Of a DNA stretch of 27,739 nucleotides, positions 1,676 to 2,271 are shown in pieces. The position numbers were made by a program, and so were the translations under genes. Within the stretch, counting starts at the first letter, position 1; every line of letters starts with the position of its first letter. The notes beneath the pieces are model-generated. The model was not told where the DNA came from and searched no databases. It was given only the letters and a program-made list of their open reading frames with translations. This stretch comes from a virus, in IMG/VR virus record IMGVR_UViG_3300042905_002644, positions 1-27,739 of that record; one strand, given 5' to 3'.

Positions 1676-1933
1676 ATGAAAAACTTTAAAGCATTTTTAA
1701 CCCATTACAAACACGTTGTTTTGATATGGGCATTGTATTGGTTCTTCGCGTATCAACTCGCATGGCCAAGTAATTTTCAACAAGTTGCAGCGTATAATGA
1801 CAGCGAGGGTCATGGCTACGTTTGGGCATTTATCGCAGCGTTCTTTTGGATTGTTTGTATCGGGTTGTTTTTCTCAACCTATACCTTCAATCAATGGATG
1901 AGGTTTAAAAAATCGGAGTGGTATAAAAAGTAA
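1676..1933 (+). CDS. Small membrane protein with two TM segments, 85 aa
   Basis: Two hydrophobic helices are evident at about residues 12-32 (HVVLIWALYWFFAYQLAW) and 49-71 (GYVWAFIAAFFWIVCIGLFF), joined by a short polar loop; the C-terminus is basic (MRFKKSEWYKK). It probably sits in the host inner membrane. It is distant from the lysis cassette, so a holin role is not supported by position; an early host-interaction function is equally possible. Its stop codon TAA (1931-1933) is also the left end of hairpin element 1. Confidence 0.65.
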   Translation: MKNFKAFLTHYKHVVLIWALYWFFAYQLAWPSNFQQVAAYNDSEGHGYVWAFIAAFFWIVCIGLFFSTYTFNQWMRFKKSEWYKK

Positions 1934-1978
1934 CGGTTGAGAATATGTGTTCGTTTTAATGACACATATTCTTTGTTA
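1931..1978 (+). repeat. Hairpin element 1 with conserved 11-nt loop
   Basis: Perfect 10-bp inverted repeat GAATATGTGT (1941-1950) / ACACATATTC (1962-1971) around the loop TCGTTTTAATG (1951-1961). It is framed by TAAC (1931-1934) and GTTA (1975-1978). The same loop and frame recur at 2223-2271 with a different stem. It could be a structured RNA, a terminator, or a folded-DNA recombination site. Confidence 0.7.
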
Positions 1979-2015
1979 TATTTAGTTTTTACTTTGATTT
2001 AAAAAATAATAAAAT

Positions 2016-2219
2016 ATGAAACATAAAAAAGAATTTGCGGTGTTTAAAACAAAAACATCAACTTGGAACAATGGAACAAGAAATTTTGTAGGGGAATTAA
2101 TTAAAGATGGTTTTGAAAATATTGAAGATGCGGAAGATTTTTTGATAGAAAGATTAGACAAAATTTCTGACAAGACTGTTAGATGTTTCATATTACCTAT
2201 TTATCAAAGTAAAAATTGA
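2016..2219 (+). CDS. Hypothetical acidic/mixed-charge protein, 67 aa, inside hairpin-bounded unit
   Basis: No family recognised. The protein starts with a basic beta segment (MKHKKEFAVFKTKTST), then a helix-rich acidic stretch (ELIKDGFENIEDAEDFLIERL, residues about 27-47), and ends with a hydrophobic strand (VRCFILPIY). It lies alone between two copies of the hairpin element, with an A-rich region before its ATG. A poor promoter candidate (TATATTTA at 1977-1984) overlaps the right end of element 1. The single-gene-plus-hairpin arrangement resembles a cassette. Confidence 0.65.
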   Translation: MKHKKEFAVFKTKTSTWNNGTRNFVGELIKDGFENIEDAEDFLIERLDKISDKTVRCFILPIYQSKN

Positions 2220-2222
2220 ATA

Positions 2223-2271
2223 TAACGTTTTGCAGCTATGCGCTCGTTTTAATGGCGCATAGGTGCTGTTA
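2223..2271 (+). repeat. Hairpin element 2 with the same 11-nt loop
   Basis: Perfect 8-bp inverted repeat CTATGCGC (2236-2243) / GCGCATAG (2255-2262) around TCGTTTTAATG (2244-2254). It is framed by TAAC (2223-2226) and GTTA (2268-2271). CAG before the stem can pair with CTG after it across a 2-nt bulge. Compared with element 1 the loop is identical and the stem is changed on both sides. A T7 run follows at 2279-2285, so it could also terminate transcription. Confidence 0.7.

Follow-up and report, generated by a model that had tools for sequence, protein, structure and literature searches.

AttC-like hairpins between small genes of a virus record and their place in integron-like arrays of phages

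Introduction

Integrons are bacterial gene-capture platforms run by the integrase IntI. The locus described here raises the question of why two hairpins with the same 11-nt loop (TCGTTTTAATG) but different stems should lie on either side of a small gene in a virus, and whether they are folded recombination sites of mobile cassettes, structured RNAs or terminators. The window, i.e., the whole stretch of DNA analysed, is the 27.7-kb virus record IMGVR_UViG_3300042905_002644, and this contig is a fragment. In our judgment, with a probability of roughly 0.85, the hairpins are attC-like sites of mobile cassettes, two of which form a recombinase-less, CALIN-like array in the window, the mechanism itself being inferred.

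The two hairpins and the two cassettes

Both hairpins, as originally read from the letters, were recovered by a covariance model at exactly 1931-1978 and 2223-2271 (48 and 49 nt, respectively). The features of the locus are as follows.

1931-1978, + strand: hairpin 1 (attC-like), TAACGGTTGAGAATATGTGT-TCGTTTTAATG-ACACATATTCTTTGTTA; covariance-model match of 67.6 bits
1975-1998, + strand: left end of gene unit A, GTTA-TATT-TAGT..., complementary to 2203-2226
2016-2219, + strand: cassette A gene, ORF of 67 aa
2203-2226, + strand: right end of gene unit A, ...ATTG-AATA-TAAC
2223-2271, + strand: hairpin 2 (attC-like), TAACGTTTTGCAGCTATGCGC-TCGTTTTAATG-GCGCATAGGTGCTGTTA; covariance-model match of 62.7 bits
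2268-2282, + strand: left end of gene unit B, GTTAGCTGCTGTTTT
2414-2629, + strand: cassette B gene 1, ORF of 71 aa, unknown
2619-2783, + strand: cassette B gene 2, 54 aa, unknown, with homologues in L065 and G001
2777-2791, + strand: AAAATAGCAGCTAAC, closing gene unit B on the right and bounding the insert there

The gene at 1676-1933 ends in a stop codon that overlaps the TAAC of hairpin 1, and the core of hairpin 2 reads GTTAGCT. Folding as single-stranded DNA, compared with shuffles, gave z scores of -4.15 (hairpin 1) and -3.37 (hairpin 2). With at most one mismatch, the 11-nt loop occurs at four places in the window against 1.6 expected; taken alone, it is poor evidence within one window, and it is the family that decides.

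The earlier note had the hairpins bracketing a single small gene, which proved too narrow, since a second gene unit follows hairpin 2 and ends at the TAAC of 2788-2791. The window holds two cassettes, A (1931 to ~2224) and B (2223 to ~2789). The ends of gene unit A (24 nt) are 92% complementary and those of gene unit B (2268-2282 vs. 2777-2791) 93%. Family scans assigned the 67-aa protein of cassette A to no Pfam or PHROGs family, and no recombinase was recognised among the ORFs of the 27.7-kb window when the ORF list was read by eye. Consequently, the CALIN criterion (at least two attC sites, no nearby integrase) is met by the window, with the reservation that it is a contig fragment.

As a separate observation, TCGGAGTGGT occurs at 1912-1922 and 2762-2772, near both outer ends of the insert, which may be chance.

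A hairpin family with one loop and many stems

The hairpins belong to a family with the layout TAACG, a bulge of 3-4 nt, stem, TCGTTTTAATG, stem and TGTTA. A pattern scan of viral and genomic loci yielded at least 83 distinct stems with an identical 11-nt loop, and most of the matches listed in viral contigs had stems of 6-13 bp round it. When 45 of the stems were aligned, the named pairs formed in 95% of cases (71% in shuffles), and each of the 11 pairs of the inner stem varied on both arms. Because membership of this set required a stem of 6 bp or more adjoining the loop, pairing close to the loop is in part a product of that choice, which did not touch the four outer helix pairs (columns 11-14); in the array-first search, pattern matches with fewer than ~6 stem pairs were counted as chance or degenerate. 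The proposal that the stems are compensated while the loop is kept is thus borne out by changes on both arms round an identical loop in that set of distinct stems. Furthermore, a covariance-model search, a step that the earlier note had suggested for Bacteroidetes genomes, added family members in the same contigs and on the same strand, some of them longer (~80-90 nt). Exact copies of hairpin 1 were found in L271, L275 and L095, with a recombinase present in the first two, and an exact copy of hairpin 2 in L112.

The family is sparse in bacteria, with elements in nine of 296 sampled Bacteroidota genomes and scattered, mostly single copies in other bacterial genomes. A BLAST search with a 51-nt hairpin query matched giant-phage records and nothing in plasmids; a 400-nt region searched against named phages gave only chance-level matches, bar one short giant-phage match. 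A full-text search with the loop sequence found no paper on such hairpins. A large terminase was detected in 15 of 39 array or recombinase records, several of which span 195-362 kb, and the phage status of the others rests on the IMG/VR classification; arrays were also present in two records titled as uncultured phages, 462 and 635 kb long. Given the bacterial matches and the host of Polaribacter phage P12002L, Bacteroidota hosts are assumed, and for the giant phages this is an inference.

Arrays of single genes and a proposed empty slot

Arrays of single genes separated by such hairpins, which the earlier note had proposed to look for, do occur in other phage contigs, co-oriented and with one short gene per hairpin; in G002, a row of short same-strand genes has a hairpin after each. 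A generic finder sorted the elements into length classes of 48, ~88 and ~125 nt, mixed within arrays. In long elements the arms stop 20-21 nt past TAAC and are followed by AGT/AGG paired with ATT/CTT, a pairing that goes through a G.T wobble in 205 of 250, and short elements carry TCGTTTTAATG exactly where the long-element arms continue. Gene units take the form GTTA-N4-(C)AGT...gene...ATT(G)-N4'-TAAC, with all four inner nucleotides of their ends complementary in 57% of 328 units (3.4% in a swapped-end control), and empty units (GTTA-N5-TCGTTTTAATG-N5'-TAAC) exist. From this matching of positions and from the empty units we infer that the conserved loop seems to stand for a vacant slot, which a longer stem or a gene can otherwise occupy.

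Genes lie in the sense orientation in 232 cassette units and antisense in 21. Few of 72 cassette proteins have a known family, those recognised being DNA methyltransferases, a restriction-alleviation protein and acetyltransferases; gene functions are inferred.

Two observations stand on their own. At 18117-17890 (- strand) of L224 and 500-702 of L229, a whole small gene replaces TCGTTTTAATG between intact stem arms. By eye only, stretches resembling a tRNA T-arm (GGTTCGATTCC) were seen at 2205-2332 and 2596-2723 of L241 and at ~12930-12810 (- strand) of L224.

Cassette boundaries

Cassettes shared between unrelated contexts extend from the TAAC of the upstream hairpin to the next TAAC in 13 comparisons (~7-8 independent), and none spans GTTA to GTTA. 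These ends indicate that the mobile unit is a hairpin with its downstream gene, exchanged within TAAC, and such an exchange fits the attI-like site described below. Against this, nine comparisons retain the downstream hairpin as well. Read on the other strand, the layout is the classical one (integrase, attI, G|TT, cassette, attC), but with genes pointing toward attI.

The classical unit, a gene with its downstream hairpin, had been assumed at first and was ruled out by the ends of the shared cassettes.

Both cassettes of the window were found elsewhere with sharp TAAC ends. Cassette A recurs in L229 at 88% nucleotide identity, from the TGTTA at 1974 of the window to the TAAC at ~2226, and is flanked there on either side by other hairpins; since neither matches those of the window, the hairpins themselves can swap or diverge. 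Its gene was also found in L230/L231 at 91% nucleotide identity, without cassette or hairpins. Cassette B recurs in L065 together with hairpin 2, where homology begins at 2223 and runs to 2793 and the 71-aa gene is swapped for an unrelated one. The 54-aa protein has 90-92% amino acid identity in L065 and G001 (L027, L225, L254), and homology between the window and G001, a 122-kb contig carrying the recombinase, ends at 2791. Three protein queries with flanking genes found no empty site in relatives of the window phage.

In L230/L231 a block (TTTGGATATATGAAATATTTTTCTTATCTTTAAATATAAAATAAAAAGGTTATG and variants) is repeated upstream of several genes, probably as a phage promoter family.

A recombinase and an attI-like site at the end of the arrays

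Among 25 array-first records, six encode a tyrosine recombinase (PF00589), exactly one each, and it lies at the downstream end of the array in the array records with mapped positions. The six enzymes have an invariant, full R-H-R-H-Y catalytic set and are 60-67% identical to the first of them. Searching from the recombinase, 167 relatives were found in viral contigs. At the best 80 of these 167 loci, 152 of 153 covariance-model matches lie on the recombinase strand, and the generic finder placed 308 elements on that strand vs. 20 on the opposite one, with 257 upstream of the recombinase vs. 15 downstream at 60 of the 80 loci; the other 20 show no upstream element with this finder. The linkage is observed, and the catalytic role of the enzyme is inferred from it.

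Moreover, the TAAC of the last unit is followed by a conserved TATTATATATA, so that an attI-like TAAC-TATTATATATA precedes the recombinase gene, at 55-77 nt before its start. The strict form occurs within 110 nt of the recombinase start at 45 of 77 loci, where 0.05 would be expected, and it meets the criterion of an attI beside the integrase.

IntI carries an extra region thought necessary for handling folded single-stranded sites. The array recombinase scored 151-161 bits against TIGR02249, the integron integrase model, with a cut-off of 265; its alignment to VchIntIA (2a3v) breaks, and between KG..DR and HxLRH a set of 34 phage recombinases has 53-54 aa, compared with 62-71 in Xer and 100 in IntI. 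Its nearest profile is XerA-type (NF040815, PDB 4a8e). In the tree, the phage recombinases stand apart from IntI and Xer with full support, their clade (including one bacterial row) having 100/99 and the IntI clade 100/100, and long branches leave the exact placement unsure. Among named phages no close relative was found, the best matches, mostly integrases of Polaribacter and Cellulophaga phages, being 36-43% identical.

In three bacterial loci (L376, L332 and L341), related recombinases lie beside chromosomal arrays in the opposite orientation to that of the phages, and in L376 and L332, read by eye, gene orientation looks classical.

Interpretation and alternative explanations

Taken together, the hairpins seem to work like the sites of an integron-like system, one found widely among phages, including several giant ones. 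Under the proposed mechanism, which rests on inference regarding both single-strand folding and recombination in vivo, the recombinase encoded at the end of larger arrays in other phages would bind the site folded as single-stranded DNA. Strand exchange would then occur within the TAAC core, on the bottom strand at G|TTA, with the attI-like TAAC-TATTATATATA beside the recombinase gene, or another TAAC, as partner. By such exchange at TAAC cassettes would be gained, lost and swapped, so that phages could trade small genes, putatively including those for DNA methyltransferases and a restriction-alleviation protein. Of the readings offered in the earlier note, a cassette with attC-like folded-DNA sites is supported by loop conservation, arrays of short genes, and gain and loss exactly at TAAC; what would have refuted it, a loop not conserved elsewhere or no tie to gene gain or loss, did not come about, both being present.

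The same note had also offered a conserved structured RNA or a paired terminator family, and the hairpins do lie just past stop codons, among 205 long elements 189 fold better on the sense strand, and the one terminator-like site of a pattern scan overlaps the 3' half of hairpin 2. Such sites are, however, not commoner than in shuffles (1 vs. 0.7), no described Rfam family was matched by the window hairpins, and an RNA role leaves unexplained the complementary ends, the recombinase linkage, the attI-like site and the TAAC ends of homology, so that we regard it as very improbable as the main function, although a side role as terminators is possible. Hairpins with a conserved loop together with short genes are typical of Y1 (IS200/IS605 or REP-type) elements, and the hairpins could be the ends of such an element that drops small genes. 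Nevertheless, the enzyme linked to the arrays has the complete R-H-R-H-Y set of a tyrosine recombinase, and each hairpin goes with a TAAC-ended cassette rather than with a left/right pair of element ends; hardly any weight is left for this explanation.

A closer rival is that these are classical attC sites whose movement depends on true IntI enzymes in Bacteroidota hosts, with the phage recombinase beside the arrays only by coincidence. A true IntI (above the TIGR02249 cut-off) was found in 84 of 296 sampled Bacteroidota genomes. In addition, recombination by IntI1 has been reported for one attC of P12002L, which carries family elements (Qi et al., 2023; PMC9892861). Against this, no such element was found near 14 true IntI loci, 12 of them with only ~1.3 kb of flank, and the one-strand, one-side linkage and the attI-like site go with the non-IntI recombinase, making this rival unlikely. 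As a matter of its own, the share of Bacteroidota genomes with a true IntI was above our expectation for the phylum.

Comparison with integrons, CALINs and Xer recombinases

As in classical integrons, mostly single-gene cassettes are arrayed with one hairpin site per cassette, cassette ends are complementary (R box), the core is G|TT, hairpin length is variable, and an attI-like site adjoins a tyrosine recombinase gene, the start codon of which is turned toward that site. The attC criterion (junction hairpin, complementary ends, G|TT core) is therefore met. Unlike in classical integrons, the GTTRRRY / RYYYAAC consensus is not kept, the phage elements have a conserved loop and a conserved G.T wobble with no free terminal structure, and genes run toward attI and the recombinase in 232 of 253 units, so no common Pc would be expected (promoters are unmapped). 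The mismatch between GTTA and GTTRRRY pointed out in the earlier note is real, and the following bases vary freely, but it does not exclude an attC-like site, since the G|TT core is kept and P12002L, for which a working attC has been reported, holds family elements.

Qi et al. (2023; PMC9892861), in the parts available to us, described phage-borne CALINs, among them that of P12002L, which has two methyltransferase genes, and showed recombination of P12002L_attC2 with attI1 via IntI1, the other strand giving no recombinants; this bears only indirectly on recombination of a folded single strand in the present family. We found family elements around the methyltransferase genes of that phage, one with an identical loop (60.8 bits), and the stretches of its record KR136259 that are candidates for attC2 are 30008-30056, 38035-38090 and 38879-38936; the link to a working attC is that of the same phage, and identity of attC2 with a family element was not established base by base in the available portions of that paper. 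The array of the window likewise lacks a recombinase, as do those phage CALINs; a dedicated recombinase of this type, an attI-like site, a conserved loop and giant-phage arrays are not described in those portions. No papers on the array recombinase, the attI-like site or giant-phage arrays were found, preprints and most subscription journals being outside the scope of the search.

The phage recombinase differs from IntI in lacking the ~45-residue IntI region and in forming a separate clade, so neither IntI criterion (extra region, membership of the IntI clade) is met; in view of the low TIGR02249 score, the broken VchIntIA alignment, the short spacing and the separate clade, we do not file the system as an IntI integron. 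In phages, a recombinase without the IntI region is accompanied by long cassette arrays and a dedicated attI. Should these arrays be its substrate, it would represent a simpler route to hairpin-site recombination, would bear on the origin of integrons from Xer-type enzymes, and would explain how phages rapidly swap small counter-defence genes. We lean, with little more than even confidence, toward a second integron lineage, phage-borne with bacterial relatives, having an Xer-like recombinase that lacks the IntI-specific region, a separate attI, attC sites with a constant loop and genes in reversed orientation, of separate origin or branching before the IntI insertion, and forming a gene-trading network among Bacteroidota phages, giants included. 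With respect to XerA, XerC and XerD, the array recombinase is nearest to the XerA type by profile, but differs from all three in its linkage to hairpin arrays and to an attI-like site.
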